Assembly: GCA_010093605.1 (NCBI GenBank) | Contig: MU004185.1 | Coordinates: forward strand, 1,447,334-1,511,333 | DNA length: 64,000 nucleotides | Source: Lophium mytilinum | Lineage: Eukaryota > Ascomycota > Dothideomycetes > Mytilinidiales > Mytilinidiaceae | Direction: 5' to 3' | Notes under the pieces: model-generated | What the model saw: only the letters and a program-made list of their open reading frames with translations | Databases searched by the model: none | What the model was told of the DNA's origin: nothing | Shown: positions 30,592 through 59,936 of the stretch, in pieces | Layout: each line of letters starts with the position of its first letter | Position numbering within the stretch: the stretch's first letter is position 1 | Program-made: the position numbers and the translations under genes

Positions 30592-32635
30592 TCAAAACTC
30601 AAACTCCGACCGAAAGCGCTCCACGTCCATCCCCGGCCCCACCAGATCCCCCAGATCCCTCCGCTGCATCTGGCTAAACACCCTCCGCAGCGTATCAAAC
30701 AGATTCGTGCTCTGATTCTGGCTAATCATGCGATCCAACTCCACCTCATTAACCGCATCCCCCACCACCTCCCTTGCACGCTCCCGGCCCTCCTTCTCGA
30801 CGACCTTGTGCATCGCCAGTGCGCCGAGGAGGTGCTGCGCCGCCTCAGCAAAGCAGCCGATATTGATGCACGAGACGCCGAGGTTGTACCGCGCGCGCAC
30901 GAAGTTGGGCCGCAGCGCGAGGGCGCGCTCGTAAGCGTCAATGGCCTCCTCGCTGCGGCCCGAGTTGGCGAGGGTAGCGCCGAGGCGGTTCCAGAGGAGG
31001 TGCAGCTGGTTCTGCTGGTTCGTCGTGCCGGACTCTGTCGATGCGAGGGCGGCGCCGAAGCAGTCGACGGCCTTTTCGTACTCCTCGGCGCCGTAGAAGA
31101 GAACACCCAGGCCGACTTGGACGTCGGGGTCCATTTGCTCGCCGGAGGGTGAGAGTTGCGCGGCTTCGATGAAAAGGTTTGTTACCTTTTCGTGCAGCAT
31201 TTGGCGGTCTGTGAAGCCGATGTCGGCGCCGGAGGAGAGGGGTTCTTTGATGAGGGAGGGGTACTTGGTTGCGAGCCAGCGCTCGAGGGTGCGGTAGGCG
31301 GTGCTGTCGTAGCCTTCGTTGGTATAGGAGACGGCGAGGCCCATGAGGGCTTCGAGGTTAGAGGGGTCAAGCTGGAGGGCTTGCTCGAGAGCGCGGATGG
31401 CGGGTTGCTCCTTTTCGTTCTGTGCTTGCGCGGCGCCGAGCTTCGTCCAAGCCTCGACGTGTTGAGGATCCTTTTGGACGGCGGCTTCGAAGGCGAGGGC
31501 GGCGAGCGAGAGGTTCCCACCTTCATCCATTATCCGGACGCCCTCCTGGAAAGGGTTCGAGACGTCTTTGAACAGGTTTTCGTCTTCAAATAGGTACTCG
31601 CCTAGTTGCGGATCCCGCATCGCACTGTGTGTGTTCAGGCCATCGAAGCCCTCCCACTGGTCGAGATCGCCCATATGCATGCCATCGACGAAGGTCTCCT
31701 CGTCGGCAAGTTGCCTGCCAATCTGGGCCTCAGCTTGGATTCCGCGCCAGACGGACTCGAAATCGCCAAAATTGTCAACTGACCTGTCCATATCGTTCAG
31801 CTCCGCCTCCATAGCCGCGTTGGCCTCCGCATCCAGGTCCTTCGTGTCCGTTGACTCCATCTGCGCGAATTCCGCTTCCCAGTCCTTGTCGTCGAGCTCA
31901 ACCATTCGTCCTTTGCCTTTGCCCTCGGCCTGGATGGGCTGCTGGTACGGTTGCTGCATCATGCCCATCCCACCCATGCCCATACCCATCCCACCCATTC
32001 CCATGCCCATCCCGCCGCCGTACATGGGCCTTTGGTAGCCCATCATACCCGCCTGGGATGCCATGCTCGGACTCGCTGCTCGCGCAGTAGCGTTTATATT
32101 ATTCATGTGCTCATACTTTGCGAACTCTACCGGATTGAACCCCGCCGACCTGGGGCCTTGCATGCCCGGATCCATAGCCGCAGGGCCCTGGACGCCGGGG
32201 TCGAACTCTGCCGCCCATGCCGGCGAGCCCGTCCGCTGGTTTGTACGCTCGAGCTCTCGCCGCATCTGCTCCATCGCGAAGGGGGAGGCGGGATTCGGAC
32301 CTTGGGGGAGCTGGCTCGGGTGGTTTAGGAACTCGTTCATCATCTGCATGAACGTATATTAGCATTATGCTTTGGTGTATTACAAGAAAACATGGTAGTA
32401 GAGGTATAGGGACATCGAGAAAAGCTCATGGCCTTGCTATGCAGCTCAAAAGGCTTGAACCTACGTTGTCTTGCCCTCCGCCCATGGCCTGACTCCGCAT
32501 GCCCTCTTGCAGCCCACCCGGCCCCCTCCCGACCAGGCGGTCTCGTTGTAGCGACTTATCATCCTGGACGTGCTTTGTGAACTGGCTCAGCGGGTTGCCA
32601 GCCGTCGAGCATTCGGCGCCACCCATGAAGGACAT
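30592..32635 (-). CDS. PEX5: PEX5, peroxisomal targeting signal 1 receptor
   Basis: Exons 32635-32465 and 32343-30592, separated by a 121-nt intron, give 640 residues. The extreme N-terminus MSFMGGAECSTAGNPL contains the conserved cysteine (Cys9) whose monoubiquitination allows receptor export from the peroxisome. The disordered N-terminal half has WxxxF/Y-type motifs (WAAEF, WEAEF) that bind Pex13 and Pex14, and a Gly/Met-rich stretch around GMGMGGMGMGMGG. From about residue 330 on, tetratricopeptide repeats follow (for example AWTKLGAAQAQNEKEQPAIRAL, then LWNRLGATLANSGRSEEAID). These cup the C-terminal SKL-type signal of cargo. The end, GPGMDVERFRSEFEF, matches fungal Pex5. It shuttles between cytosol and peroxisome membrane. 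Start and splice are well supported. Confidence 0.95.
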
Positions 32636-34976: not shown

Positions 34977-36545
34977 CTATAACTGCGCCCTTTGCTGTGC
35001 TATATCACTTTTCACGGTTTTCGATGCGCCTTCGGCTTGCCAATGCACCTCGACGTCTTTGTCGCAGTCGTAAGTCAACAACCATTTCCCCACACCTCCC
35101 CACCGCCACGGCAACGGGTCCGTCCCGTCTTTCAGATCCACCGTCGTCGGTGGAACCCCATCGTTCTCCCGCGCCCCAAAAGCACGGAGTAGCTCGTCTC
35201 GTTCTCTCTGCTCCGCTCCATCATGCACATGGTATAGATGCTGTTGGAGGTTCCCTCTTTGCACGATTCTTTCGGTCCGAGCCCGTCGGCATTCTTCATA
35301 GATTGCTAGAGCCTTCTTCTTTTCTGCTGGATCTTTGGAGGTCAGGCGCGCAAGACACAGTCCCAGTACTTGTCCGTCCTCCAAGGACATGCCAGCCCCA
35401 GAAGCGAGGTAGGGAAGGGTTGCATGTACGGCATCGCCAAGAGTCGTGAAGGCTCCCGAGGGATGCGACCAGGTTGGTTCGAGGGTAGGCCTGATGCAGA
35501 GGCGCCACTTGTCTACTGATTGACACAAGCTAAGGAGCTTCGGGATCCTAGGCTAGGTTAGCGACGATACCGTAGGGGGTTTCCAGAATACGAACCTTGG
35601 ATCCCAGTCTTTGAAAAACGCTCTCATTTCATCGACATTGCCAGCTAGAGTTGAGGCACCGGCGGGCATGTCGTCTGGGACTAGCAAAACCATGTTGAAC
35701 AATGCGCCCCCCCTCAGCACGTAGTTTACTGCAATGGTCAATATCATAATGCTGGGCTATTTCAAGGCAATGTGACATACCAGCATGTGCATCGGGCCCC
35801 ATCCAGTAGTTCACCTGCGGATCCTCCACGAATCCCCTCAGTTCCGGATCCTTCATCATGTCCTCCGTCTTGAGCAACAACCTGTACGCCAAATCGCCAG
35901 TCAGAATCGGCGGATCCTCCTTTCCCAACAATATTTCCCTGCACTTCGAGTTTATCCCATCAGCTCCCACCACCAGATCCGCTGTCCTTCTCGTCCCATT
36001 TTGTAGCACCACATCCGCCGTACGCTCATCTTTCGCCGCAACTACATCTACCACCCTCGCGTTCACCTCCAGCACCGCCCCAAGCTCCACTGCCCTGTCC
36101 AGCAGGCATTTATGCAGGTTCGCACGATGGAAGTCCCAGAATGGCGTCCCGCACTCTTTCTCGTACTTGTGGAAGTCCATGTAGGAGATGTGTTTGCCCT
36201 TCCACCCGAGCATATTGGCCTGCTTTGGCTTTGTGGCGTATTTTCCAAGGGTCTGCTCCATGCCCCAACGGATGAGCACACGGGAGCTGTTGGGGAGGAC
36301 TTGGATCCCAGCGCCCACTTCGCCAATTTGAGAGGCACCTTCGAGAATGTGGACAGAGTGGCCGGCGAGGAGAAGGGCGATCGCTGCGCCGAGACCGCCG
36401 AGGCCGGCTCCGACGATTATAATCTAGCATTTTTAGATTCGATCTCGAAGTATGATGTTACTCTATTGAGGGTTTGGTAACTCACGTCAAGCCTGCTAGC
36501 ATCGTCACGTTGCTGCTTCTCCATAACCTTTGGTGGAGGCGCCAT
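34977..36545 (-). CDS. hxnX: FAD monooxygenase, candidate 6-hydroxynicotinate hydroxylase (HxnX-like)
   Basis: Four exons (36545-36486, 36423-35781, 35728-35596, 35547-34977) give 468 residues. The FAD-binding Rossmann motif GAGLGG is at residues 25-30, the DG motif appears as VVGADGINSKCRE, and the second FAD contact as GDAVHATLPYLASGAGMSLEDG. This is the group A flavin monooxygenase (salicylate hydroxylase / NicC) architecture at its usual length. In Aspergillus nidulans HxnX belongs to this class and is assigned to decarboxylating hydroxylation of 6-hydroxynicotinate. I use the symbol because the next three genes match HxnM, HxnN and HxnV. By sequence alone it could be a salicylate or other aromatic hydroxylase. 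It ends in AQL, not a canonical peroxisomal signal. Confidence 0.72.
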
Positions 36546-37035
36546 GTTGAGAAAGAATGATCAAATGCAATACTGAGAAGGAAGAGTCAAAATACTACTC
36601 GAACATATAAGAATGCACAGGCTCATAAGAAGGCCATTGGTGGTGGAAGACGTGTCATTGACTACAAATATGAGAGATACTAAGCAGACTAGGGAGCTGC
36701 TTGCTACGTGCGGGCACATGCCAATGAGAACGCCAAGCTCCATAGCTTATCGAATCAATTGTATGTTAAGATCTAATAGTATCAATGCGCTAGAAGCTGT
36801 GAAGAGGGGGAGGTGGTGAGGTCGGCATTGCAGAAGTGGGGGTTGCAAATGGAGGCGTGAAAGACCCAACATGGGAAGTCGAGTCGATGGCCAAAGCTTC
36901 TCCTCCACCCTTTCTCGGGCTTGAGTTGGGAGTGAACGCGTCTGGAATACATCACTCGACGCGTTTTTTGCGGCTTGCAACCTTTGTTTGCTAACATGTG
37001 CAGGGCACGAATTGTGTTCTATGGATATATCTGCA
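36546..37035. other. Intergenic between two cluster genes on the same strand
   Basis: Promoter region of the monooxygenase gene and 3' flank of the NodB-fold hydrolase gene. No other gene. Confidence 0.45.
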
Positions 37036-38143
37036 TCACGATGTTCCCTCCTTCTGCTTCTTCAGAATCTCTCCAGCAGGTGCCGGCATCAAGGCACCGG
37101 GCGGCGGTGTATTCTTGCTTTTGAAGTCATCGCACATTTGCTCCATGGTAACCCATTCGACTCCCTCATGCTTGTTGATATGTTCGATGATTCTAGAAGT
37201 GTGTCAGATTCGACTTATTCAATGGGGAAGAACACCGGTAAAGTACACACCTCTCGTGCATAAGAATGACATGCGGCCTCCCTGAGACGTCAGGATGAAT
37301 CGTCATCGGGAAAACGAACTCATCGTACTCGCGGTAAAAGTAATCGAAGTGGTCCATCCAGATAGCCTCAACATCTCTAGGATTTACCCAGCCATGGCTG
37401 TTCGCCGAGTTTTTAATGAACATCATCGGCGGCAGATCATCAATATACCACGAGCCAGGAATCTCAACCAAGCCGGTCTCCTGGCCCCTTTCTAGTGGCT
37501 TCATCCACGTCTCGGCTTTCTTGCTGTAGTCGATCTTTGTCCAAGTGTCTCCCGTCCGCAGCCAGTACAGTTTGTGATCCTCGTGGCTCATACTGTGGTC
37601 ATACTCGATACCGTAGCTCAGCAGCAGTTCGGTGCCTTCTCTGCTTGTCTCCCACCACGGTGCCACGCTTCCTCGGGGAGGCTTGCCGCAGAAATCAGTC
37701 AGTAGCTTGTAGGTCTTGTCTAACACGTCCCGTTGCTGCTCAAGGGTCATGTCTTTCGGATTCTCGTGTGTATATCCGTGTAGTCCAATTTCGTGTCCAG
37801 CATCGCGAACCGCCGCGCAGTCTTCGGGAAACGTCTCTAAGGAGTGGCCTTCGAAGGTGTCAATTATAGCTCCTAAGTTCTCGCGGAGAGCTCATACCAG
37901 GAATGAACCAAGTCGCCTTGATCTTGTACTTGTCGAACAGCTTCAGCAATCGCTGCGTGCCTACGGTTCCAGCCCAAAGACCTATATTTCTCAATTAGAA
38001 CTTCCAATGTCTCTAAACATGTCCTTATCGGCCTCACCTCTGCTGATATCGCTGGTTGAATCCTCGCCTCCATAGGATCCCAACCATCCAGAAACCGCAT
38101 CAATGTCAACACCGTAGCTGACGAGAACTCTCTTCTTGCCCAT
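37036..38143 (-). CDS. hxnM: NodB-fold hydrolase, candidate cyclic imidase (HxnM-like)
   Basis: Four exons (38143-38038, 37981-37898, 37848-37251, 37192-37036) give 314 residues. The carbohydrate-esterase-4/PuuE-type fold is seen in motif 1 [15 protein letters not shown] (metal Asp) and [22 protein letters not shown]. The metal histidines are in [14 protein letters not shown] (H-x3-H), and the central motif is [11 protein letters not shown]. The C-terminal part holds [12 protein letters not shown] and VILMHERIIEHI. The set, with no signal peptide or chitin-binding domain, fits the cytosolic branch that includes bacterial and fungal cyclic-imide hydrolases rather than wall chitin deacetylases. 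HxnM opens alpha-hydroxyglutarimide in nicotinate catabolism of A. nidulans. The flanking amidase and two flavin hydroxylases support that reading; allantoinase-like or other imide activity is the alternative. Confidence 0.75.
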
Positions 38144-39891
38144 TGTTGCAGTATGTGTGACGTAGGATGGGTGTTTTGGGTGCAATCGAAACGAACTCAG
38201 GATGAGGAATTTCCGCAGCTCGAAGCTCCATGCGCAACGCGATAGAGGGGTCCAATTCTAGACCCCGCTCTAACACGCGCAAGGATGGCGGCAAGACAGT
38301 TTGTTCAAGAGTGGGGGAGTACATGACGCCAGGATAGTGGCATAGTGGTTCCCCGATGGACGTTTATCGTGGCGCCGCATTAGATCCCGCATGTTGCAGG
38401 GCTCCCATCCTGGAAGGTGGGACATTTGAAGCTTCATCCACTTCCAACGTTTTCGATCGTAGAAACATTCCATGGGCTCATGCAATCGTAACATGTCATG
38501 GAAATTATCTCCACTTCACAGATGCTCCGAAGTTTCGTAGTGTTTCGATGTTGCTGGAGAGCATTCGCAGCCTCCTTTCGGATCCAGAGTCGGCGCTCCG
38601 CGATCGGAAAGGGGAATTTCCAAATTACACTCGATGTTTCTATTCAGTTTTTGACGGGGTTCGAGAAATTCAACTGGCCCTTTGTGTTGCCCTCTTCGTA
38701 GCTAAACTGGGAAAAATGTTGCAAATACTCTCGAATCTAACCGCGCGAATGCTTTTTTGATAAACGCAGAGGGAAACAGAAGGGACGCGGCGTGTTCCAG
38801 TTCCTCTACAAGACTAAGATCGTTTAGAGCAAGGCTTGATAAGATCTCATTTCTCGAGACGCACGCGGTGTGAAGCGTGATTCTACAACACATCGCCTGG
38901 ACTCGTTACAAAATTCCACCTATTCTACCGCATGAGAACTATTTCGTAGCCGCGGAGGGGCTACGGACGTCCGCTATACGTAGACGTTTGTAGTTCCTTT
39001 TAGTTGCTAAAGTAAGGGGGCAGTAGCTAGGGTAACAGAAGGTAGGCAAAAAGCGATGCAAAAAACAGAAAATGGTCACCTTCCGGTTTGAACTGGAGAC
39101 CTTTCGCGTGTCAGGCGATGGATATAGGTATTCTAGCCAATGCTGCTTTGCTCGTCTTAGCGCCGCGCGAACACCCTCGGCCGAGCAGGCCTTTGACCTT
39201 TTCTTCTCGTGAAGTTCTCTGAGTACACCCCAACGTCAATCGCACATCCGGCCACCCCCGCTGTGAGTCTGTCCACTCAGCACGGTACCCCGATTCACTT
39301 TTCTTCCGTGCCTATATCAATTTTGCGACACTTTCAATCACCTCAGGGCTCTTCTAGACGCAGAGGTTGCAGCTGGACTCCTTCAATACGTGCATGTTAC
39401 AAGACAGCCCTGGTCCCAGACGTCCAGGTACGCAAGAATCAGTTGGTCGCATGACGATACTGCAGCTATCCATTGACTGGCCGATTCGAGTTCCCGAACA
39501 GGGTGAGTGTGATTGTCGCCTTTGTCCAGATCTTTTAGAAGCAGTCCGACCAAGTCCTATATAGGAGTACGCCTGCATTAACTTGCTATTAATCTATCTC
39601 CATGGTTGATCCTTACCATTTCAGTCATCAACTTCACACCGTAAGCTCCGCGGAGAGAGTGCTACGTGAGTGCGTCAAGCTATGCTAACGGTGAGAACAT
39701 AATCACCTTTGCCTTTTGCTTCCTTGTTAGACGCTGCTCTCTTTGCATGTACCGCACCGACACTTTACCAAGATGCGCTCGATTTCCCTAAGCTACGCAA
39801 GGCGTAATTGAGAGCACTGTGAAAGACATTTATTGTAATACAGTCTAATAGCAATGTAAACGCGAAGAAATATAGCATCCAGAGGTCTGAA
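38144..39891. other. Spacer inside the nicotinate-like block
   Basis: About 1.7 kb without a supported gene, longer than other spacers in the block. A 134-codon plus-strand frame at 38356-38760 is unrecognised. A tRNA-like relic lies at about 39072-39145. A 7-bp inverted repeat CGTAGCC...GGCTACG occurs near 38945-38966. Confidence 0.45.
39072..39145 (-). pseudogene. tRNA-like relic
   Basis: On the minus strand the end of this segment reads AGGTCTCCAGTTCAAACCGG, close to the variable loop and B-box (GGTTCAAxCC) of a tRNA. It is preceded by an anticodon-arm-like hairpin TCGC-CTGACAC-GCGA and a D-arm-like TTGGCTAGAATACC. The acceptor strands (AGCAGCA and GGTGACC) do not pair and the T-stem has mismatches, so it is not a functional tRNA. 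It may be a decayed tRNA or a tRNA-derived short interspersed element. Confidence 0.35.
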
Positions 39892-42150
39892 TCATGCATT
39901 CAGTAGTTTCTCAACTACTGCCGCAATCCCTAACACTTTCTCCTCCTCCAGCCTTCGTCCTACAATTTGCACGTTCACTTTCATCCCGTCCATTGCTTCC
40001 ACGTCGTAGAGTGACCAATTCCACTTGTCGATCTCATTTCTCCCCTCGTAAGGCGAAATAGAGTCCATTGACGGATCTAGCTCTTTCGAGACATTGCCAG
40101 CGGCGAGGGAGAGCGCAGTGTAATCAAGGAGGTTCCATACCTTGGTGTATCTGCCATCGACATTTAGCATGCAGATCGATTTATATCGCCGCGTCAACTG
40201 TTTATGCTATTTGGGTAGTAAGAAAAGGCACACATACCCCGGCCATTTGCATCCGCGATGCTTTACCGCAGAATGCGGCATCACTGGTGTCAACAACACG
40301 TCAACGGATCTTCCCGTATCTGGCGACACAGCCGCATTCCACTTATCTAGATATCGTTTTTGGGCCGCGAACTTCCGCTTGTTCAGCTGCCAGTACTCGT
40401 ACACGGAGATTGCTGGTGCTTTGTTCACCAGACCTGCAACGTGCGGGATGTACGGCTCACCGCCTACGAGCATGTCACGACGTATGTCTTCGCCGCCGTC
40501 GGCAGTGTAGTATGCATCCTATTGTAGCAGCGTTAGATGCTTAACTTGCAATACTCCTGAAGTTATGAAGGTTACGTACTACGATGTCGATGCATTCACG
40601 GTGATAGTCACCTGGATGCCACGGAATGATCTCATGGCCGGCTTCTTGGAGTTTTGCGGCTACTGCTTTCAGTATCCGGGCTATTGGAGGATGCACGCGT
40701 ACGACACCGTCGTCCTCCATCAGCCCAATAACCAGAGGCCTGGATTGAACTTCCAGAAATGCGTCATTCCGCCAGGGCAATGGCACACACCTCGGATCCA
40801 GCTTCCAAGGTGCGGCATCAATCACTGCCTTTGTAACTGCCGTAAGAGACTGCAGAGAGCGGCTTAACGGACCAACTACAGACGGCACGTGCTCTTGGCC
40901 ATCGGTAGATACCGGCACGCCGTGGTATGGCAGTCTTGTACTCTGCAAAAGGGTGTCAGAGGAAGGTATTCCTAGCGCAGCGATTACGAGAACCTATAGT
41001 CCAGACTTACACTAGGTTTAAGGCCATAGAGGCCCATCATATGAGTGGGAATGCGAATCGATCCCCCGATGTCCGTACCCCAGCCGACGACAGAGCCGTG
41101 CATGTAGAGCAACGCAGATTCGCCGCCAGTAGATCCTCCGGGAGTGAAGTCGGGGTTCTCCGGATGTGTCGTTAATCCCCAGAGCGGATTTTCTGTTTCA
41201 CACCACTGCACAAATGACATCAACTTCCGATGCAATCCGGAAGATCGGAAAAGGTTGCCGCCGTACCATGATGCTCTGTGGTAGGTTCGTCTTTGCAATG
41301 ACCACGGCTCCGAGCTTCTTCAGCATGGCAACCAGGACGGCATCCTCGCTAGCCGGCTTGAATGCTCGCCCAACATAGCCAATAGTGCTGTCGTAACCTT
41401 TGACATCGAACTGGTCCTTCAGAGTCATGGGAACGCCATGGAGCGGCCCGACGAGTGTCCCATGCGCGTTAAAATAAGAATCAAGCTCCTCGGCCGCTTT
41501 TAGGGCCTCATCGAAGATGATCTCGGTAAGACTGGCAACTGTCAGCAGGCACCACAGTCTTGGTTACCCATGCAAGGGCCACGAGGGACCACGAGGATCG
41601 GAGGGCCTCCGTACCAATTCGTCTGTGCCCGTCAGTCTGCCGAGCCGTTGGGACTTGGGACCGCATGAGACAGGGGTTTCAGAAAATGAAGAAGAAAAAA
41701 ATTCAACAAATGAAGGGGAATTTACACGCTTGTGAGCAGCCACAGCCCTAACATGGTGTGAGCATGGCGTTAGTAGCCTGTGAATATAAAGCACGTGGCT
41801 TGACGCATGCACGGGATCGCACCTTTCTATGTACGCTCTGCAGAGCCGAGTTGCTGTGACCTCTCCGCACTGGATGGCAGCTGTGATCTCGCCCACATGG
41901 TCAATGTCCGTGAAATCCCGCTCAGATCCTGCCTGCGTGGTTGCGGCTCCGAAAGGGGTTGCGCCGGCATGCTGGTGTTTCGATTTGTTAGGATCTATGG
42001 GACCTCGGAAGCGGGCAACGGCGACTCTCGTGGCTCCCTTACCTCGCGTGATGCTACGGATCCATGACGGGAATGCTTTTGGATAGCGTCGGCTTGGATT
42101 TGGCGTTTTCTGTGGACTACGTCCTCCCAGTTCGGGTGGATATCAGCCAT
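39892..42150 (-). CDS. hxnN: Amidase-signature enzyme, candidate HxnN-like amidohydrolase
   Basis: Eight exons (42150-42043, 41971-41823, 41747-41728, 41538-41267, 41205-41011, 40942-40580, 40518-40238, 40150-39892) join in frame to 548 residues. Amidase-signature hallmarks are clear. LHGVPMTLKDQFD carries the catalytic Lys. GGSTGGESALLYMHGS holds the cis-Ser region. GTDIGGSIRIPTHMMGLYGLKP contains the nucleophilic Ser. The start ADIHPNWEDVVHRKR and the segment LTEIIFDEALKAAEELD are typical of fungal acetamidase-type members. Exon 3 is only 20 nt and encodes AVAAHK; intron 3 is the longest, 189 nt. In nicotinate catabolism HxnN hydrolyses alpha-hydroxyglutaramate to release ammonia. Its head-to-head position with the phenol-hydroxylase-type gene and closeness to the imidase support this; a general acetamidase is the alternative. 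Confidence 0.75.
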
Positions 42151-42603
42151 CACAAGGATAATGAAATTTGATGAAACGTTCAACACAGACAATTTACGCA
42201 GGAGCAAGAAGGAAAAGTACCACAACTCTCAACGGCTTTTGCGGATCCAGGCTCGGCATGCCTTAAGGAGCTGCTGCCGTACAAGCTTCCCCGGCTTCCC
42301 GCAGCGCAGTGTCCCCTGGGGTCCAAGGGTGGGGGCTGCCGTGAGGTCCATGCCACCAGAAAAAGTTCCACTCACACATTTGACAACACAGCGATCAACA
42401 CAGGCCCTTTCGAATTTCCAGAAGGTCACCCCTAGCTAACATCACACCACGTTGCGGATCCAAAGTGCTGAGCCTTGCCGCCGAGCCGAGTAGTTTCAGC
42501 CATGTAGCTATCAAAAGCACAATGGGGAGCTCCCAGGAATGGCGTACGAATCGCGACTCCCCGCAGCACCCCCATTTTCGAATCGCGGCCAAAAAGAGCC
42601 ACC
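42151..42603. promoter_or_regulatory. Divergent promoter of the amidase and phenol-hydroxylase-type genes
   Basis: 453 bases separate the two start codons. A GATAA near the amidase start (about 42157) and a TGATAG on the minus strand near 42510 are weak matches to GATA-factor sites, as expected for nitrogen-regulated genes. No binding site for a specific regulator could be identified. Co-induction is inferred from arrangement. Confidence 0.45.
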
Positions 42604-44822
42604 ATGACGGCCACCATTTGGGATATCATGAAGCGTAAACCTTCTTCGCAAAGGTCGCACTCTTCGTCTCCGTCGCCCAAGATGTCCCCCGGCTTGAAGA
42701 CTGAGTCGCTGAGATCTGTTAGCACCGCTGCCAGCTCCATGGAGGTTACGCCTTCGAATGGCCAACCCGAACGACCGAGTTTCAGCGATGTCGTGGTGGT
42801 CGGGGCTGGGCCTGCGGGGCTGATGCTTGCGTATGTGTTTCTGTGGTGTTCTGGTGCAAGGGATTGGGCTAACCAGAAGTCGTGTATAGGGATAACTTGG
42901 TGCGTTTTGGTATCAAGACCGAAGTTGTAGACAACAGGCCTGAGATGACCCTCACGGGAAGGGCAGATGGTCTACAACCCAAGACTGTGGAGACTCTGAG
43001 GCAGATGAAGTTGGCAGAACCTCTGCTACGGAAGGGTGTGAAAGTGTATGACATTGCTTTCTGGGTATGTTCATGTTAGAATCCAGCCTGAAAGTATATG
43101 TTTACTGATCTTGAATGCACAGAGATCAACATTAAAGACCAAGTTGCAACGCACTGGACGCGAAATCCACTATCCTCCATTCGTCGACCTCCTCGATCCC
43201 TACATTTTGCTTGTTCACCAAGGCATGATCGAAAAGCTCTTCATAGACGATATGGCCGAAAGAGGAGTTTCGATCCGGCGAAATATCGCGTTCTCGGATT
43301 ATCATTATACCCCGGAGAAGTCAATGCCTCTAGAGGCTGTCTGCAAAGAGAATGTCGATCAAACAAGGAAAACCTTCGGGACGAAGTACATTGTTGGATG
43401 CGACGGTGCCCATTCCATGGTGCGAAAATGTCTCCCAGATTCGAGGCCTGAGGGCTCTTCTCATGATGCTATCTGGGGTGTGTTGGACGGCCAGATTGAC
43501 ACTGATTTCCCGGATCTCTGGAGCAAGGCGGTCATCTCGTCTGAGGAACGTGGTTCTGTCCTCATGATTCCGCGAGAACGGAATCTGACGCGGCTTTACA
43601 TCGAACTTAAATCAGATGCTCGGGAAGGTACCCCGCGAGAGGAACTATCTCAAGACTACGTGATGAAGAGAGCGCAAGAAATTGTGGCCCCATTCTACCT
43701 TAAGTGGAAGAGTGTCGGTAAGTTTTACTACATATTTGTCCTATCCGAGTAACATTCTGACAAGGACAGAATGGTTCAGTCGCTATCAGATCGGTCAGCG
43801 AGTGGCTTCGCGTTTCACAGATGATGTGGACAGAGTCTTCATTGCCGGCGATGTAAGTGTTTACACCCAGTACTGAAGTGCCGCGCTAACTCATTCAGGC
43901 GAGTCATACACATTCTCCCAAGGCAGCCCAAGGGATGAATACCTCGATGCACGATACCTGGAACTTAGCGTGGAAATTAAACTTTGCCGTCCGTGGTCTT
44001 GCAAAACCTTCTCTGCTTGCCACCTACGAGCAAGAGAGGAGGAAGATCGCCCAGGATCTTATCAACTTCGACTACGAGCACGCGAACGCATTTGCCAACG
44101 GAGACTCAAAGGCCCTGGCAGAGAACTTCCGCAAGAACGTAGCTTTCATCTCCGGCTTCGGTACCACCTACGACTACAACATCCTCAATATCCCCTCCAA
44201 AGGTCTCATCCACGGCAGCCTAACACCAGGCTGTCTCCCTCCCCCCGCAAAAGTCACTAGATTCATGGATGCAAATCCAGTCGACATCCAAAACGATATC
44301 CCGGCCTTAGGCCAATTCCGTATATACTTCTTCACACATAACGTCCACGACGCCAAACCGTTTCTAGACACCGTTTGCGCTAGTCACGTATCTCACTCCT
44401 CCAGTGTTGGCAAAATCACATCTGCCGGTAATGCATCATACACTATTCAACCTCCTCTCGACGCACCACATGACGGATTCGTCTGCCCAGAGCGCTACAC
44501 TCCTGTGAGCACCATATTCACGTATTCGCTCGTTACCGACATGTCGCGCAACGACGTCGAGATTGCAGACCTACCGCAGGTCCTTCGCGATAGCAGGTGG
44601 ACGTTCTATCTTGACGACGTTCCTGACATGGACACACGCAAGCAGACTTGTATCGACAAGTGGCTTGGTGGCCTGGACACTCATGAGGTCGCCGTCGTGA
44701 ATGTGAGGCCGGATGGGTATGTCGGTGCATTCCGGAGCTGGCCGGTAGGCACACGGGAGAGCGGGTTGAGCGCTATAGAATGGATGGATAGGTATTATGA
44801 GGGTTTCATGAAAGGGCATTAA
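42604..44822 (+). CDS. hxnV: Phenol-2-monooxygenase-type FAD hydroxylase (HxnV-like)
   Basis: Five exons (42604-42830, 42890-43064, 43123-43717, 43770-43852, 43899-44822) give 667 residues. A Ser-rich leader of about 60 residues precedes the FAD motif [14 protein letters not shown]. Then come [16 protein letters not shown], a hallmark of phenol hydroxylases, the [12 protein letters not shown] motif, and [19 protein letters not shown]. The last 190 residues form the thioredoxin-like dimerisation domain of this subfamily. HxnV of A. nidulans is of this type and acts on a hydroxylated pyridine-derived intermediate. The whole enzyme is about the usual length and intact. Alternative: a phenol or other aromatic hydroxylase. 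Context (imidase, amidase, second flavin hydroxylase, carrier) is the reason for the symbol. Several in-frame ATGs in the leader make the true start uncertain. Confidence 0.75.
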
Positions 44823-45707
44823 GAGGATCATTGGGCACATGTTGCATATGGGTGGAGTATATAGACTACTAGAAGTAGATCCGGCGGACGTATAGATCTT
44901 GGTTGTAATGAATTAGAACATCTTCATTCTTTTTTCGCGAGTATCAAATCTTAAGGCAAGGTTTCGCTGAACCCTAGGTTAAATCGAGGTAAGTTACGCC
45001 AACCCAAGAACGTAGAAGCTGCAAGGCATGGTGGCGTCTTGCAACGCCGCCAACATGGTAACGAATCTCAACTCCACGTTTGAGAGCCCTGAAGCAGGTC
45101 CTTGAGCCTTCTTGCACTCATCCACTTCCTCGGTATCCGATCCGCAACTCGAATCAGCATCCCAAAGACGCGTCCAAGCGCTCGCACCTAGCAGGTTCCC
45201 CATTCTCGCATCGCGCGTTAGTCATGACACCCGTCGGATTCGTTAAATCCGCCCTACTGTTCTTTCGGCAGCAAGGAGCCGCTGATCTTCAACCATCACG
45301 TTTAGGGGTACTCACGACTGGCAAACTCCCCCACTCTCGCTGTATCGTATCAACTATCGCGCTCTATCAACAATGGTCGCCTACACAGCAGCGCCCTATG
45401 TAGGGAGCGCCTCCCAAGTAGACTACAGTAGTACGTCCTTGGCTGGGTTCTACAGCATCAAAAGTTAATCTATCGCACCACTGTGGCACCTTATCGCATC
45501 GGTCAGGAACCGGTGGCGCTTTTGGAACCAATCGCCCGGTAGGATAGCTGAGCTGCAAGGGGTGGGTGTTCTGCATAGAATAACGTCTTGGCTATATAAA
45601 AGTCTAGTCTGCCAACCCTTTTCGTCGATCTCATCTTCATCTTGTTCCGATTCAAGAGTCTTGGCTTCTTGTCTTCCACCGAAAGACACTTGAGAGGTAC
45701 CGCGACA
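44823..45707. other. Intergenic, promoter of the cluster transporter
   Basis: About 0.9 kb between two plus-strand cluster genes; no coding sequence recognised. A TATA box lies at 45593-45600. Confidence 0.5.
45593..45600 (+). promoter_or_regulatory. TATA box of the cluster transporter gene
   Basis: The string TATATAAA lies 108 bases upstream of the transporter ATG, within the range usual for inducible fungal genes. Neighbouring cluster genes lack such a clear match. Confidence 0.55.
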
Positions 45708-47467
45708 ATGTTCGGCTCATCAGAGAAGGCCACCTTCGATGGCGACAGCAAGCAGGTCTCGCCTCCAGCAACGGAAGCAGACCACGATATGGGGAGCTCA
45801 GTGGCTTATATCGACAAGGCGGCAGAGAAATCATATGGTAAGCCACTTCCATAGTATAGCTACATCTCTATTCTAACATTGCTGCTTCCAGTCCGCAAAC
45901 TAGACTTCTACCTGCTACCTTTTCTCTCATTAGTAAGTTCACATGAACGACCCTATGAGGCAGCATAAATGCTAACGAAGCCTCTAGATGTACTTCTTCA
46001 ACTCCGTCGACCGTAGCAATCTCGGCAACGCAAAAACCGACGGCATGGATATAGACCTCCATTTCATCGGCGAAGAGTACTCGCTTTTGATCTTGCTGTT
46101 CTATATCCCCAATGGACTTTGCGATCTGCCGCTAAACATGTTGACGAAGAAGTGGTCGGGAAAGATCATGCTTCCAGGACGTAAGACCGCCTTCTACCAC
46201 TCACTGTCCTCAATGATTGATGCTAATTCCTGGTTGCAGTCATGGTCAGCTGGGGTGCCTGTGCACTCCTCCAATGTGCCGCCTACAATTTCGCGGGAAT
46301 GGTAGTGCTTCGTTTGTTCCTTGGGTATGTGTTTCAGCCAACATATGTTACATTGGAGTTGCTGACAGTCTCTATAGTGCCTTCGAAGCCGGCTTCTTCG
46401 CTGGAACGGTCTTCTACCTCACCCTCTTCTACACCCGCGGCGAACTCGGCTTCCGTATCGCCATCTTCTTCGGCAGCGCCCTACTTGCCGCTGCCTTCAG
46501 CGGTCTAATCTCGTACGGCGTTTTCCAGATCGACTCGGATGTTCCGGGATGGAAATTTTTGTTCATTATCGAAGGTCCGTCTCCTTTCCCCTTCCCCTTA
46601 AATCACCAATTAACATCTCCAGGCGCCATGACCGTCCTCATCGGCACCGCCGCCTTCTGGTGGCTCCCCGCCACCCCAGCTACGGCCTGGTTCCTAACCC
46701 CCGCCGAACGCGCCGCCGCGCGCGCCCGCTCCCTCCGCGACTCCTCCAGCTCCACCGGCGTCGAATTCAGCGTCCGCGAGTGCTTCCAGCACTGGAAGAC
46801 GTGGAAGTTCTTTCCATGGATGGTGATCAGCTTCACCTACCCGGTCGCCTTCTCCACGACCGCCAACTTCCTGCCGCAGATCGTCGCGCGGCTAGGCTTC
46901 TCAGTCGTCAAAACGAACCTCTGGACCGTCGCGCCGAACGCCGTCGGCTTCGTGTTTCTGCTGCTCGTGACTTACAGCAGCGACCGCTTCAGGGAGCGCA
47001 CGTTCCACATCGTCTTCGCGCTGCTGGTGAGCGGCGTGGGCATGGTCATCCTCGCGACTATCGACGTTCTTGAGCATAAAGGTGTGGCGTATTTCGCGTG
47101 CTTTATGATGGCGTGCGGTTCGTATATCCCGAGTTGTCTGGTGCATAGCTGGCACAATAACAACAACCTCAACGAGAATTCGCGCGCTGCGACGACGGGG
47201 TTGCTAGTGGGGCTGGGGAATCTGGGGGGGATTTTGTCGGCGGGGACGTTCAGGAAGCAGTATGCTCCGAAGTATGTGCCGACGCTGATTGCGACGTGCT
47301 GCTGTAATTTGGTGTGTATTGTGTTTACGTTGTGGTTGGGTGGGTGGATGAAGATGGAGAATCGGAGGCGGGATCGGGAGATGGGGGAGGTGATTAGGCC
47401 GGAGGATATTGATACGGATGAATTGGCGGATGGCGAGAAGAGTGCGAAGTGGAGGTATTTTACTTGA
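45708..47467 (+). CDS. MFS transporter, TNA1/Dal5 family, candidate nicotinate carrier
   Basis: Six exons (45708-45837, 45892-45932, 45988-46180, 46240-46324, 46378-46574, 46623-47467) give 496 residues. The start of the transport domain, RKLDFYLLPFLSLMYFFNSVDRSNLGNAKTDG, is the strong signature of the anion:cation symporter group that includes yeast TNA1 and Dal5. It is followed by LRLFLGAFEAGFFAGTVFYLTLFY, a central cytosolic loop rich in Ala/Arg/Ser, and a second six-helix half with GLLVGLGNLGGILS. Twelve membrane segments are expected in the plasma membrane. Nicotinate uptake fits the flanking catabolic genes; A. nidulans has two MFS genes in its hxn set (hxnP and hxnZ) and I cannot tell which this resembles. 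The ATG at 45708 was chosen because the apparent upstream start is a TTG. Confidence 0.85.
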
Positions 47468-51279: not shown

Positions 51280-52180
51280 ATGAAGTTCAGCACTACCCTT
51301 TTGAGCCTCGCTTCGGCAGCTCCCCTCGTTCTTGGGTTCTGTGACAATGAAGACTACGACCATGACATCCTCAACATCTCCCCGGAAGAAATGAAGCACA
51401 GTATGGCGAACATGCGCCGGGATACCATCGAGGTCGATCTGTACTACCATCTCCTCGTCACCCAGTGGTCCGACTCCAACAACACCATCCTCGACGGCCT
51501 CTGGAAGCAGATCGACCACATGAATGCCGCATATGGCATCTACGGCATTCACTTCAACACCCAGCCCGTCGACATTATCGTCGATGCGGCATGGGCCAAC
51601 GACATCGATCTCGACAAGGCTGGGAAGGGCGCGCTTCTCCACAAGGGCAACTATAACGCCGTAAACATCTATGCTGGAGAGGGTTTCGGCAGCGGCGTGT
51701 GCTCTCTGCCAAATGGCGTGGACAGCACCGACGGGACGTCGACAATTACTGAGGACACCCTCCTAGGCGATGGCTGCCATCTTCCCCTCAGTGCTGCGGT
51801 CAACCCAATCAGTGGAACTCCTTCCCACGAAGGTAAGTCAAACGAACCCCACCCAACCCTCTTATATCTCAAGCTTACTGATTCGTGATGTAGTCGGCCA
51901 CTGGTTCGGTCTCTACCACACCTTCCAAGGTGGCTGCTCCGAGCCTAACGACTATTGTGACGATACTCCCCAGCAGGCGCAGCCCTCGTACTCGCATGAG
52001 ACCATCACTGGGAACGTCGAGAGCTGCCCGGTGCTGGACACTTGCCCCGCCAATGCTGGCAACGACCCCGTCTGGAACTTCATGGACTACACCGACTGCT
52101 CGCATGAGTTCACGCCTCAACAGGGCGCTCGCATGAACACTGCCTTCAACAAGTACCGTGCCAACAGGCAGGTTGCGTAA
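51280..52180 (+). CDS. Secreted M43 (pappalysin-type) zinc metalloprotease
   Basis: Two exons, 51280-51832 and 51894-52180, give 279 residues. Residues 1-19 are a signal peptide (MKFSTTLLSLASAAPLVLG), followed by a short possible prosegment. The zinc motif HEVGHWFGLYH (HExxHxxGxxH) is created across the intron, with the usual downstream TFQGGC. The Met-turn is in VWNFMDYTDCSHEFTPQQ. Cysteines are spaced as in the family (YCDDTP, ESCPVLDTCP). The mature size of about 26 kDa fits the fungal M43B group, which includes Mep1 of Coccidioides and extracellular proteases of plant pathogens. It should digest extracellular protein; a virulence role is only suggested by relatives. A TATA box and unusually strong splice signals suggest an inducible, highly expressed gene. 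Confidence 0.92.
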
Positions 52181-53046: not shown

Positions 53047-53988
53047 CTACCAACGCAAGTCCTTGAAATCCAGATTCTTGATGACTCCCGCAGCAGCAAA
53101 ACTCCTGTTGTCTGCAGTGACATTCGAAATATCTTGATTGATCCTCAATTCTTCTCCAGAAGTATTGATGAAACCCGCCAGAGCCGAACTATTCTGCGAT
53201 GCCTTGATACCCTTGATCTTCTGCCCTGTACGTTCATACACCATTTGTGACAGTGCTTCCTCGCACATGTCTCGCAAGACAGCTTTAGCAGCTTGTTGTC
53301 TCTCAATCTCTCGGAGAAGCTCTTGTTTGCTTCGCTCTGATTCGTCATCCGGCTCGGTGTTTCCACCAAGAGCGAGTTGTTCTCGACTTTGCTCAAGTTC
53401 CACCATTTCATTGTCTGCTCTAGTGAGCTCTTGCCGAAGACTGGCTTCATTTGCTCTCAGTATGCTGTCCTTCTGTTCTTTCGATAGGTCGTTTTGGTTG
53501 GTTGCTACTAGACTGCTTTTTGGTCAGCTATTGGCAGGCTAAACTTTCACCCAGAGTGAAACATACAGAGCCGCTGTGGACAGTGCGACACTGAGAGTGC
53601 TTTTGCAGTCGCTGAGCTGCCCTTTGAACGTCTTGATCCTCTCTGGCCCAAACAGCCCAATCTTCCATCGAGATATCCAGAATATCTTGTCCTTTTTGGA
53701 ATGCTTCATCCAGCTCTCGATTTGCAACTGAAATGCTTTGCATGCTCTGTCACAATTCTCGACAGCAGGCCCAATTTGGTTACTCTGGATGACTTGTAGG
53801 GAGTCGCCTTGTATTGCCACATTCAGATCCTGCAACACAGACTCAACTGCCCTGAGGTCGGCACTAATATCTCTGACAGTACCTGCGGCGCCTCTAATAT
53901 TGTCGATGGTCTTGGCGAGGAACTGAGTGCCTTGGAGAGCGGTAGTTGTAACTGCTATTACAGAGGCGGTAACACTGAGAGGGTCCAT
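53047..53988 (-). CDS. Helo-like/STAND N-terminal-domain protein, putative partner of the adjacent NOD-like receptor
   Basis: Exons 53988-53567 and 53512-53047 with a 54-nt intron give 295 residues. The start MDPLSVTASVIAVTTTALQ, the helix SADLRAVESVLQDLNVAI and a Trp/Lys-rich middle fit the fungal N-terminal helical domain (Helo-like, PigL_N/SesA group). That domain is found at the N-terminus of NOD-like receptors or as stand-alone proteins. Residues 150-235 are charged coiled-coil-like. The C-terminus (about 240-290) has two related units: ASQNSSALAGFIN at about 245-257, and ADNRSFAAAGVIK at about 274-286. Such doubled short motifs at the end of a Helo-type protein are the plan of amyloid-forming cell-death effectors like HET-S. 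It is head to head with the receptor gene, 304 bases apart. Effector function is inferred. Confidence 0.7.
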
Positions 53989-54292
53989 TGCAATAAGGAG
54001 ATCACTTAAGAAAAGTTGAAGGTAAAGACCAAAGTAAGGAAAATATGGCTGTCCAAATAGGCAACGAGCTGATATTTGGGGGCTGTGCTTTGGCTGAGGC
54101 GAAGCTGAGGGGTTGTGGGCAGCCACTCATTGCGTGTGTCTTGGCGCGGCCTCGAGGCTGAGATTTTGCGTATGAACGTTGTCGCTCCAGCCTGACGATG
54201 CAATTGAGCATCTCTTATACACCTCGTGAAGATCACTGCGTTGCAGTAAGATTCCTCCGCGGAGCATTGCGTCGCACCGGGCCCTTGTCGCG
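53989..54292. promoter_or_regulatory. Shared promoter of the effector-receptor pair
   Basis: Only 304 bases separate the start codons of the two divergently transcribed genes. No distinct TATA box; the interval is mixed in composition. Co-expression of the pair is inferred from this arrangement. Confidence 0.5.
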
Positions 54293-57200
54293 ATGGCTAG
54301 CAGCTCTTTGCCCGACCACCTCGCTATCCACAACACGTCCGCAACAGAAGGCAGTCAGACCTTTGCTGGAATCAACCTTGGTACCATAGCTTATGCTCCC
54401 AGCGAGACCCCACTACGTAAGAACTTTAGCTCCAAAATCTTTTGTACTAACAGATTAATTGAAAGTATAGAACTCAACGATTTACTTCAGAAGACCCTAC
54501 CCGTTTCTGTCGACGCGTCGTTCAGCGCACGCAAGCGGGAGCGCGAACCAAAATGTCTCGCGGGAACCCGTACCGATCTCCTTAACGACATATACAATTG
54601 GGTGGATGGTGGCTCACAGAGCATCTTCTGGCTTTGTGGTCTGGCCGGCACGGGCAAGTCTACAATAGCTCAGACTGTGGCCGCCACCTACTCTACACAG
54701 AACACCCTCGGAGCTAGCTTCTTCTTCTCGCGGGGCGGCGGTGATGTTGGACATGCTGAAAGATTTGTTACAACCGTTGCATTTCAGCTTGCAAACATCA
54801 TACCGGGTCTGAAGCGCCAAGTCTGGGACGCTGTATCAGAGCGCAGCGATATCGCCACCCAGTCTCTCCGCGATCAGTGGCAGGACCTCGTACTCGGTCC
54901 TTTGTCTAACATTCCGATTGGAAAAGACTGCAAATCGAGATATGTCCTTGTCATTGATGCTCTCGATGAGTGTGAAGATCAGAGTGACATTCAGATCATT
55001 CTACAACTTCTAGCTGAAGTTCGGTCGCTAAAGGTTGTCCGGTTACGGGTGCTAGTGACGAGCAGACCTGACATTTCGGTCCGATACCCCCTTAACCAAA
55101 TAAACAGAGATGAGCACCAGGACTTTGCACTTCATGACATTGAGCGGTCGATTGTGGATCATGACATCACTATTTTTCTGAGAGTCAACCTCGGACGTAT
55201 CAGACAGAATAATGAGCTCCAGGCTGACTGGCCGGAGGAGAGTGCGATTTCAGCTTTAGTCCGGAGCTCCAATGGACTATTCATCTGGGCCGCGACAGCC
55301 TGTCGATTCATCGAACAAGACGGCCGGCTTGCACGGGACCGTTTATCTCTACTCTTACAAGAACCCAACAACACGACTGAACCAGCACGCAAGCTTGACG
55401 AAATATACACCACCGTTCTGACCAACACTGTCCGAGGAGAATATGACGAAGAAGAAACTCTGCGGTTGCGCGACCTATTTCGTCAGGTTGTTGGACCAAT
55501 CATCGTTTCTCCAGAGCCTCTATCCGTGTCAAGCCTTGTCGGTTTACTTGGAAAAGATGCCGAGGGTTTTAGACCAACTTTATCCAACTTGCATTCTGTT
55601 CTCCATGTGCCAGAGGCCGAGTCGACTACCGTTCAGTTGCTCCACCCATCATTCCGCGACTTTCTCCTTAGTAGGAAGCGATGCTCGAATCCTCAATTTT
55701 TCATTGACGAGAAATTGGTCCATCACGACATGTACAAGAACTGTCTTCGAGTCATGTCACGACACTTACGGCGCGACATTTGCAGCCTAGGACGTCCAGG
55801 AGCCGACAAAACTAGCCTGAGCAGAGGTGAAGTGGACGCACATATTCAACCACATGTTCAGTATGCATGCCGGTTCTGGGTTCATCATTACATACGAAGC
55901 GATGTAGACACTGAAGACCATAACAAGCTTGAAAGCTTCTTCCGAATACACTTTCTACATTGGCTTGAAGCGCTAGCACTATTAGGATGTGCCTCTGACG
56001 CTGTAGGCATGATTCATATGCTGAATTCCGGATTCTCAGTAAGAAACTTTAGTTCCACAATACCCCTTAATTAGCTAACCTATCAGGGCAAGCGAGAGAA
56101 GCTACTTCGGATACCAACCAGAATTCGTGGCAAGCTTAAATCGATGTTTGCATTCAGCGATGCACCTACAATCGATACAAATCCGGAAGATCCCAAGAAT
56201 GTAGCACAGCCAAAATTACAGGCGCTGATACATGATGCGGTACGATTTATTCTCACGTTCCGACCCGTCATGGACGTGGCACCGCTTCAAGTGTATTGCG
56301 CTGGTCTGGTTTTCAGCCCAACTGCGAGCATCATCAAGAAGAATTTCTCAAATGAATTTCCCGCCTGGCTTCCGCGCACGCCTATGGTGTCAGAAAACTG
56401 GACTCCCTGTTTGCAGACGCTCAGGAGACTTACTCGCTTCAACCATATGGCATTCTATGTCGCCTGCTCGCCGGACGGCAAGACGCTGGCGTCAGCGTGG
56501 GATAGCAAGACATTCAAGCTGTGGGACGCTGGCTCGGGAAAGGCGCTTCTAACGCTTGAACACGATTCGCGTTATGTTCATGACGCGACCTTCTCGCCGG
56601 ACAGCAAGACGCTGGCGACCATAGGGGACAAGACGGTTAGGCTGTGGGACACCGGTTCGGGGAAGGCGCTCCTAACGCTTGAACACGATTCAGATAAGTC
56701 TCATGTCGCGACATTCTCGCCGGACAGCAAGACGCTGGCGTTGACAGACAACAAGACGGTCAAGCTATGGGACATTAGCTCGGGGAAGGCGCTGCTAACG
56801 CTTAAAGGCTATTTAAATTTGATTTCAGCTTTAACCTTCTCGCCGGACGGCAAGACGATAGCGTCGGCATCAAAAGGAACGGTCACGGTGTGGGACACCC
56901 GCTCCGGGAAGGCACTGCAGACGTGCAACCACGCTCACTGGGTCCGCGCCATAACCTTCTCGCCGGATGGCAAGACGATGGCGTCAGCAGAAGACACGGA
57001 AATAGTCGAGTTATGGGATATTAGCTTAGGGAAGACGCTGCGGTCGCTCAACGGCTTTTATGGAGTAGCCTTCTCGCCGAATAGCAAGACGATAGCGTTG
57101 AGATCAATGGACGAGACAATTGAGCTGCGGGACGTCGGTTCAGGAAAGACGCTGTCAACACTCAAAGGCCATTCGGAAGTCGTCTGTGCCGTGGCCTTTT

Positions 57201-58216
57201 CGCCGGATGGTCAGACGCTGGCATCGGCATCGGATGACAAGACAGTCAAGCTATGGGAAGCTGGCTCAGGAAAGGTGCTGCAAACATTCAAAGGCCATCT
57301 GCGTGCACTCAAGACCGTGGCCTTCTCACCAGATGGCGAGACGCTAGTATCGGCGTCAAATGACAACACAGTCAAGGTATGGGACGCTGGCTTCAGGGAG
57401 GGACTGCGAACTATCAAAGCCCATTCGGGTCCGGTCAGGGCCGTGGCTTTTTCTCTGGATAATAAGATGGTGGCGACGGCGGCATCGGATGATAAGACAA
57501 TTAAGCTATGGGATACCACCGGCTCGGGGAAGGCGCTGCAGACACTTAAAGGCCATTCTGGTCTGGTCAGGGGCGTGGCCTTTTCACCGGATAACAAGAT
57601 GCTAGCGTCGGCATCGGATGATAAGACGGTCAAGCTGTGGGACGCCACCGGCTCGGGGCAGGCGCCACGGACGCTCAAGGGCGATTGGGGTATGGTTAGG
57701 GCCGTGGCCTTCTCGTCGGATGGTAAGACGCTGGCATCGGCATCTGTTGGGACAGTTGCACTGTGGGGTACCGGTCCGTGGAAGGCGCTGCAGCAGCTTA
57801 GAACAGATGAAATCCTTATCGAGCACGTGGCCTTGGCCTTCTCACCGGACGGCAAGACGCTGGCGTGGGCAATGGGCAGGACAGTCAGACTGTGGGACAT
57901 CGTTTCAAAGACGGTGCTGCGGGAATTTGAAGCTAGTTACGATCTGCAAAGTCTTTCGTTCCTTGATACAGGTTTCTCTCTTTTGACAGATAGAGAAGTG
58001 CTACTTCTCTCAGATGCTCCTGATGAAAACGAAGTCATTCATCAACCAGCTCCTCCGCAATCAATGTCTGTACATGAAGATTGGACGTATTCTAATGGTG
58101 AAAGAATTCTTTGGCTTCCTTCCGAATATCGCCCTCAGTTCGTCGCTATTCATGGTAGTATTGTTGTATTTGGGTACTCTTCTGGTCAAGTGTTAATTGC
58201 AAACTTTGTCTTCTGA
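54293..58216 (+). CDS. NACHT-WD40 NOD-like receptor (STAND protein)
   Basis: Exons 54293-56038 and 56087-58216 give 1291 residues. The first 40 residues hold a short motif ATEGSQTFAGINLGTI (17-32) instead of a folded effector domain. Next come CLAGTRTDLLNDIYNW, the P-loop GLAGTGKST (116-124), Walker B VLVIDALDECED, a VTSRPD sensor motif and a helical arm with LLHPSFRDFLLS. These are standard for fungal NACHT receptors. After a linker, twelve WD40 repeats run from about residue 700 to 1200, several nearly identical. In-frame sequence 54417-54470 has a perfect TACTAAC branch site and GTAAGA/ATAG ends, so it may be a further 54-nt intron (1273 residues). Receptors of this class sense non-self and trigger regulated cell death by templating amyloid in a partner, here probably the divergent gene. 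Both frames are open; it looks functional. Confidence 0.88.
56440..57930 (+). repeat. Array of twelve WD40-coding repeats of about 126 bp
   Basis: Twelve units share the core FSPDGKTLASAS-x-DKTVKLWDAGSGKALQTLKGH. Units 7, 9 and 10 (about 57180-57670) are the most alike at DNA level, whereas units 1-6 and 11-12 are more diverged. High identity among internal units suggests recent exchange, as reported for the het-d/het-e family. Unit boundaries are approximate. Confidence 0.8.
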
Positions 58217-58961: not shown

Positions 58962-59936
58962 TTATACAAAAGTCACTTTGACCGGCCTGCCATCATTCTC
59001 ACTTCGCCGTCGTTTTACCGGTGATCCACTTCGACTTCTTACCCGTGACCCACCTCGACGCGTCCGCTTCACCACACCCTTCGGAGACAAACTTCTCCTC
59101 CTCTCGACAACCCGCGTTGGAAACCTCTTACTCATGCAATTCTTACTCCAACACCGACACCCATACCCAGCCTGCTTAAAATACCCCTCCCCATAATCCG
59201 CCGTAACCTCCGCACCAGCCTCAATCGTCCTCGTCGCCTCTATCACCATCGCAATCTGCTTCCCGACCCTAAAGTACTCATAATGCGTGTTAGCATCACA
59301 GTTATGGTTGATAAACCGCGTCCAATTCCCCTTACTCTCCGCGTCAATCATCGCCTTTGGCCACGTCATATCATGCCGATTTTTCGCGCGCTTCGATGCT
59401 CGCTTTCCAATCGGGATATTCAGGCAATACGCCAGCGACTTCTGCTCATCAGGCACCGGGATCACGCGCCCGGTGTACGCACCCAGTATCTGGCCCCTCT
59501 TCCACTTCGTTTTGGTGAAGGCGGCCACGCCTAGCGGTGTGTCGCGGAGTTCGAAGCGCGATGTCCAGTCGAGGCCGCCGGATAGCCACTCTTGGAACTT
59601 GTGGCCGCAGTTGAGGTTGCCGCGGCCTGCGGAGCACATGTTGTCGTCCCATAGGGATCGGCCGAGACAGTGCAGGTCTTTGCCGTTGTCAGCGGCTAGG
59701 AGCGTTACGAGGCTCTTCGGGGGCCACTTGCCTGCGGGCCAGCCTGCGGGCGGTTCGGCTTTGGGTGGCCATGGTGCTTTTTTCCACTCTGTTTTGGCGA
59801 ACTCGAGGCCGTCGAAGCGGCGGGGTGTGATGGTTGTTCCGTTGGAGGGGGCGTTGCGGACGGTGGCTTTGGTTCCGGCGGATTTTTCGACCCAGTATTC
59901 GAATGTGTCGTTTCTGAGGCCGCCGCGTGCTGGCAT
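58962..59936 (-). CDS. SET-domain protein, copy A
   Basis: A single-exon frame of 324 residues starting MPARGGLRNDTFEYW. A Trp/Pro-rich segment (WKKAPWPPKAEPPAGWP) precedes a pre-SET-like part with Cys and His, ending FQEWLSGGLDWTSRFELRDT. The SET domain follows: GVAAFTKTKWKRGQILGAYTGRV, then the cofactor knot NWTRFINHNCDANTHYEYF, and the Tyr-containing VTADYGEGYF. A post-SET-like CRCWSKNC and a very basic tail rich in Arg/Ser complete it. The canonical NHSCxPN appears here as NHNCDAN. It is probably a lysine methyltransferase of the small fungal SET group; substrate unknown (histone or other). It is a tandem paralog of the gene at 60560-61516. Confidence 0.82.
   Translation of the reverse strand: MPARGGLRNDTFEYWVEKSAGTKATVRNAPSNGTTITPRRFDGLEFAKTEWKKAPWPPKAEPPAGWPAGKWPPKSLVTLLAADNGKDLHCLGRSLWDDNMCSAGRGNLNCGHKFQEWLSGGLDWTSRFELRDTPLGVAAFTKTKWKRGQILGAYTGRVIPVPDEQKSLAYCLNIPIGKRASKRAKNRHDMTWPKAMIDAESKGNWTRFINHNCDANTHYEYFRVGKQIAMVIEATRTIEAGAEVTADYGEGYFKQAGYGCRCWSKNCMSKRFPTRVVERRRSLSPKGVVKRTRRGGSRVRSRSGSPVKRRRSENDGRPVKVTFV

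Follow-up and report, generated by a model that had tools for sequence, protein, structure and literature searches.

Nicotinate utilisation in Aspergillus nidulans depends on the hxn regulon, whose genes lie in three clusters, 1/VI, 2/VI and 3/I (Amon 2017 PMC5746545, Bokor 2021 PMC8478523, Bokor 2022 PMC9304392). HxnS catalyses the first step of the route, HxnX and HxnV the second and third, HxnT and HxnW act in the middle, and HxnM and HxnN carry out the last two steps (PMC8478523/PMC9304392). Clusters of 11 and 10 hxn genes are described in Cyphellophora europaea and Monascus ruber, respectively, and clusters lacking hxnS, predicted to serve the use of 6-hydroxynicotinate and not of nicotinate, in Penicillium, Talaromyces and Aspergillus section Flavi (PMC8478523). 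Here we describe a block of five adjacent genes, designated X, M, N, V and P, in a 64,000-nucleotide stretch of the Lophium mytilinum genome (assembly GCA_010093605.1, contig MU004185.1, positions 1,447,334 to 1,511,333; the whole stretch is called here the window). Judging from its sequence, this block is very probably a partial hxn cluster of this ascomycete.

The block occupies positions 34977-47467 of the window (12.5 kb) and consists of five intact, intron-containing genes in the left-to-right order X (-), M (-), N (-), V (+), P (+). Manual splicing yielded open reading frames (ORFs) with GT-AG introns of 46-189 nt, giving the following features (FAD, flavin adenine dinucleotide; FAAH, fatty-acid amide hydrolase; MFS, major facilitator superfamily; SDR, short-chain dehydrogenase/reductase; aa, amino acids):

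34977..36545, minus strand: X, HxnX-like FAD monooxygenase, predicted 6-hydroxynicotinate 3-monooxygenase; 4 exons, 468 aa; spliced model 36545-36486, 36423-35781, 35728-35596, 35547-34977
37036..38143, minus strand: M, HxnM-like cyclic imide hydrolase with NodB/CE4 fold, HpPgdA-like; 4 exons, 314 aa; spliced model 38143-38038, 37981-37898, 37848-37251, 37192-37036
38144..39891, no strand: M-N gap, 1.75 kb upstream of M; five GHGGGG sites; no SDR gene or relic found
39892..42150, minus strand: N, HxnN-like FAAH-type amidase; 8 exons, 548 aa; spliced model 42150-42043, 41971-41823, 41747-41728, 41538-41267, 41205-41011, 40942-40580, 40518-40238, 40150-39892
42151..42603, no strand: shared N-V intergenic region; two GHGGGG sites (42329 and 42559; motif predicted for HxnR); one GATA site
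42604..44822, plus strand: V, HxnV-like phenol-hydroxylase-type FAD monooxygenase, predicted 2,5-dihydroxypyridine monooxygenase; 5 exons, 667 aa; spliced model 42604-42830, 42890-43064, 43123-43717, 43770-43852, 43899-44822
45708..47467, plus strand: P, candidate HxnP/TNA1-type MFS carrier of the ACS family; 6 exons, 496 aa

No frameshift or stop had to be bridged in any of the five genes, and thus nothing points to pseudogenes. Pfam assigned FAD_binding_3 to X, Polysacc_deac_1 to M, Amidase to N, FAD_binding_3 and Phe_hydrox_dim to V, and MFS_1 to P. These spliced models and domains agree with the first-pass annotation of this DNA, which had placed five adjacent genes of these families at the correct coordinates. 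The predicted lengths of X, M, N, V and P (468, 314, 548, 622-667 and 496 aa) are close to those published for their A. nidulans counterparts (461, 307, 543, 620 and 491 aa). The range for V reflects an uncertain start codon, as Met1 gives 667 aa and an internal Met such as Met46 gives 622 aa. The likeness to A. nidulans extends from families and lengths to the active-site residues of X and V and to the structures nearest to M and N, as described below. P matches the ACS-type NCBIfam subfamilies TIGR00893 and HpaX, has no relative in the PDB at E 0.001, and reads LPGLMVSW across its third-intron GT-AG junction. A second MFS carrier gene (9199-11018, minus strand), 25-44% identical to P over its exons, is found some 24 kb left of the block, surrounded by unrelated genes.

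The residues published for the active sites support the assignment. Eight active-site residues are published for HxnX (Gln59, Val223, His232, Val234, Tyr236, Val247, Leu248 and Leu249; PMC9304392). X, whose FAD_binding_3 match (E 1.8e-20) and length are those expected for HxnX (~461 aa), has all eight (Q, V, H, V, Y, V, L, L), with His233 and Tyr237 as the key pair. Because 18 homologues, comprising bacterial relatives and solved structures, reached 0-6 of these 8 residues, the test can be considered calibrated, though some pocket positions are widely shared. It should be noted that the scores come from pairwise alignments in which the PDB sequences are partial and copied from HMMER alignments, and that the NicC score is possibly one too high, since residue 47 of the chain used is Gln but, according to the paper, His. 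Plasmid sequences searched by tblastn with X returned relatives only up to ~36% identity, a level uninformative on orthology. Close to X, at 30595-32358 on the minus strand, lies a gene for a tetratricopeptide-repeat protein whose N-terminus, judged by eye, resembles that of PEX5, the receptor of peroxisomal targeting signal type 1 (PTS1); this proximity is probably a coincidence.

V gave a similar picture. It carries the two domains expected for HxnV (~620 aa), and five of the HxnV/MHBH substrate residues (Asp65, Lys231, Leu243, Ile245 and Tyr255 in HxnV; PMC9304392) are all present, as D102, K269, L281, I283 and Y293, with the Lys-to-Tyr spacing of HxnV; the position of the sixth, Ile126, is ambiguous in the alignment. 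Phenol hydroxylase (1PN0) has three of the same five. Scans of viral contigs with V and N found no relatives.

The arrangement of the genes points in the same direction. The hxnN and hxnV genes are transcribed divergently, as a couple that is shared by the classes of Pezizomycotina (PMC8478523/PMC9304392), and N (-) and V (+) are divergent here, with their starts 453 bp apart. The C. europaea and M. ruber clusters likewise have the N-V couple and place M and N beside X and V (PMC8478523). In A. nidulans the pathway genes are also split over more than one place, yet differently, as X-W-V, M-N and P belong to three clusters there, whereas X, M, N, V and P stand together here. Genes of the X, V, N and P types belong to large fungal families, which, like the second P-related carrier at 9.2-11.0 kb, would allow five unrelated catabolic genes to have become neighbours by chance. 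This is most improbable, as the genes together match a single pathway of the literature, and N and V are oriented like the conserved couple.

M matches HpPgdA (3QBU), the solved structure nearest to HxnM (PMC9304392), with an E-value of 6e-131 and 64% identity over 287 ungapped residues, and has the DxD and HxxxH motifs. Read by eye, the protein starts straight at its catalytic domain without a signal peptide, which agrees with its earlier description as a cytosolic NodB-fold hydrolase. A pattern-based scan of genome contigs found bacterial homologues of M with 56-59% identity, mostly from Brevibacterium. N (Amidase, E 1.2e-91; 548 aa against ~543 expected) has fatty-acid amide hydrolases as its top solved matches, including rat FAAH1 (2VYA), and FAAH1 is the structure closest to HxnN (PMC9304392). 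The motifs TLKDQF, GGSTGGES and GTDIGGSIR provide N with the Lys-Ser-Ser triad.

M and N thus resemble an imidase and half-amide hydrolase pair, and with P they could form a unit for succinimide or glutarimide utilisation, in which case X and V would be neighbours without a part in it. Lipomyces indeed has an hxnM-hxnN pair without other hxn genes (PMC8478523/PMC9304392). We nevertheless regard such a unit as very improbable: the residues of X and V fit HxnX and HxnV, and V is paired divergently with N as in hxn clusters. The first-pass annotation had also offered a cyclic imide as an alternative substrate, a weaker reading because it leaves two monooxygenases unexplained.

None of hxnS, hxnR, hxnT, hxnW, hxnY and hxnZ was found in the 64-kb window; for hxnS, hxnR, hxnT, hxnY and hxnW this had been claimed before, and template, motif and Pfam searches bear it out. 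Bacterial templates for SDR, old yellow enzyme, molybdenum hydroxylase and 2-oxoglutarate (2OG) oxygenase matched no window ORF of at least 25 aa at E 10, a result conditional on the templates and the limits of the window, and weak for the 2OG oxygenases, for which one template was used. Motif scans of the window gave no credible site, and Pfam searches of the other long ORFs detected no member of the S, T, W and Y families. The hxnM and hxnW genes form a divergent couple in many Pezizomycotina, common but not universal (PMC8478523/PMC9304392); this couple is absent here, as neither the 1.75 kb upstream of M nor the rest of the window yielded an SDR. In the gap itself (38144-39891), where hxnW would be expected, the local template search found no protein gene and Rfam no RNA gene, and Rfam and tRNA scans of the whole window were without matches. 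The C. europaea and M. ruber clusters, by contrast, retain both the hxnM-hxnW couple and hxnR (PMC8478523). The block shares the lack of hxnS with the clusters of Penicillium, Talaromyces and section Flavi, but these retain hxnR and most of the other genes. We infer that other parts of the genome encode S, R, T and W and that HxnR would co-regulate the block in trans.

The promoters were consistent with such a control to a limited extent. The four promoter regions together contain 10 copies of GHGGGG, the motif predicted for HxnR, compared to 4.5 in dinucleotide shuffles (P ~0.003); the N-V region taken singly is not enriched over shuffles. AreA GATA sites showed no significant enrichment in the promoters (12 against 9.3 expected).

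Several observations weigh against an hxn cluster. One control intergenic region is also rich in GHGGGG and the density in the promoters exceeds the mean of the window by a factor of only 1.5, which makes the excess weak support, and the GHGGGG consensus is itself a prediction. The hxnR gene, normally found in the clusters, is not near, and no C2H2 pattern matched in the window. N reads GGST where FAAH-type relatives read GGSS. Orthology is taken from published residues and not from best hits or a tree. Furthermore, the solved relatives nearest to X are decarboxylative hydroxylases, namely 8GSM (4-hydroxybenzoate; 360 bits, 47% identity) and 8X38 (vanillate hydroxylase; 293 bits, 41%), ahead of NicC (160 bits, 36%). 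Judging by family, both would share with X a para-hydroxyl decarboxylative chemistry. Finally, X ends in ...RAQL, a non-canonical PTS1-like tripeptide (AQL). A. nidulans HxnX is peroxisomal and ends in the PTS1 SRL, and a PTS1 is reported to be conserved in Pezizomycotina HxnX (PMC9304392).

These last two features of X would also fit a gene cluster directed at a different hydroxyaromatic or hydroxypyridine compound. X would then be a decarboxylative hydroxylase of the 4-hydroxybenzoate/vanillate type, V would act as a phenol hydroxylase, and an imide or amide arising later would account for the recruitment of M and N. In addition, imidases of the HxnM type have paralogues in all dikarya that are presumed to be unrelated to nicotinate (PMC8478523/PMC9304392). 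However, 8GSM and 8X38 each have 6 of the 8 HxnX pocket residues, and X agrees with the published HxnX at every one of these positions but departs from 8GSM at two. The N-V couple is familiar from hxn clusters, and benzoates have no ring nitrogen, so that an imidase and an amidase would be without a role there. Altogether, we consider another substrate unlikely.

Read as a partial hxn cluster, the block would act as follows, with substrates transferred from A. nidulans genetics (PMC9304392) and thus predicted for L. mytilinum. P would import a nicotinate derivative, for example 6-hydroxynicotinate, X would exchange its carboxyl for a hydroxyl group to yield 2,5-dihydroxypyridine, and V would hydroxylate the latter to 2,3,6-trihydroxypyridine. 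Reduction and oxidation of the ring to 3-hydroxypiperidine-2,6-dione would be performed by enzymes encoded elsewhere, HxnW and HxnT or a substitute; a substitute for HxnT is known to exist (PMC8478523/PMC9304392). M would then open this cyclic imide and N would hydrolyse the resulting amide, freeing ammonium as a nitrogen source. The block had initially been labelled as the lower nicotinate pathway. Its assignment to hxn is upheld by the families, lengths, active-site residues and N-V couple, whereas "lower" is inexact, because X and V correspond to the second and third steps and only M and N to the last two.

X, V, M and N alone could conceivably constitute a shortened eukaryotic route, in which M would open 2,3,6-trihydroxypyridine directly and HxnT and HxnW would be dispensable and may be absent. 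This compound has an imide tautomer (3-hydroxyglutaconimide/3-oxoglutarimide), and M could therefore hydrolyse it directly to alpha-ketoglutaramate, from which N would free 2-oxoglutarate and ammonium; the stoichiometry closes (C5H5NO3 + H2O -> C5H7NO4). A route from 2,3,6-trihydroxypyridine to alpha-ketoglutaramate exists in Arthrobacter and Rhodococcus and shares with this scheme the trihydroxypyridine and the C-N ring opening; according to PMC9304392, its enzymes are a polyketide-cyclase-like hydrolase and an omega-amidase, and thus not of the HxnM and HxnN types. Apart from the gene set itself, the sequence gives no reason to prefer the shortened route, and T and W may just be encoded elsewhere; we hold this route to be decidedly unlikely.

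Other genes were also noted in the window. A gene for an AA14 lytic polysaccharide monooxygenase is located at 701-2053 (+), and an ORF of 1159 aa without Pfam match at 17248-20724 (-). To the right of the block, 51282-52180 (+) encodes what by eye is a secreted M43-type metalloprotease (spliced HEVGHWFGLYH), the first exon of which has no Pfam match. The region 53050-58213 holds two adjacent genes. One is NLR-like (NOD-like receptor), with NPHP3_N/NACHT and then many WD40 repeats in units of 123-126 bp (ORFs 54230-56071 and 56075-58213, plus strand), and the other encodes a PigL_N/SesA-type domain (53542-54126, minus strand), a layout found in fungal allorecognition and cell-death loci. Two neighbouring SET-domain genes occupy 58965-59942 and 60563-61537 (-).

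Split hxn clusters, hxnS-less clusters and hxnM-hxnN pairs have already been described, and the block is a reduced version of a known cluster and largely ordinary. It would add to these an arrangement in which X-M-N-V-P stand together and none of S, R, T, W, Y and Z was found nearby. The hxn pathway is a model for the formation and break-up of fungal metabolic clusters. If the genes for the middle steps were absent genome-wide, a shorter eukaryotic route of nicotinate catabolism would be suggested, which could be tested with four enzymes.

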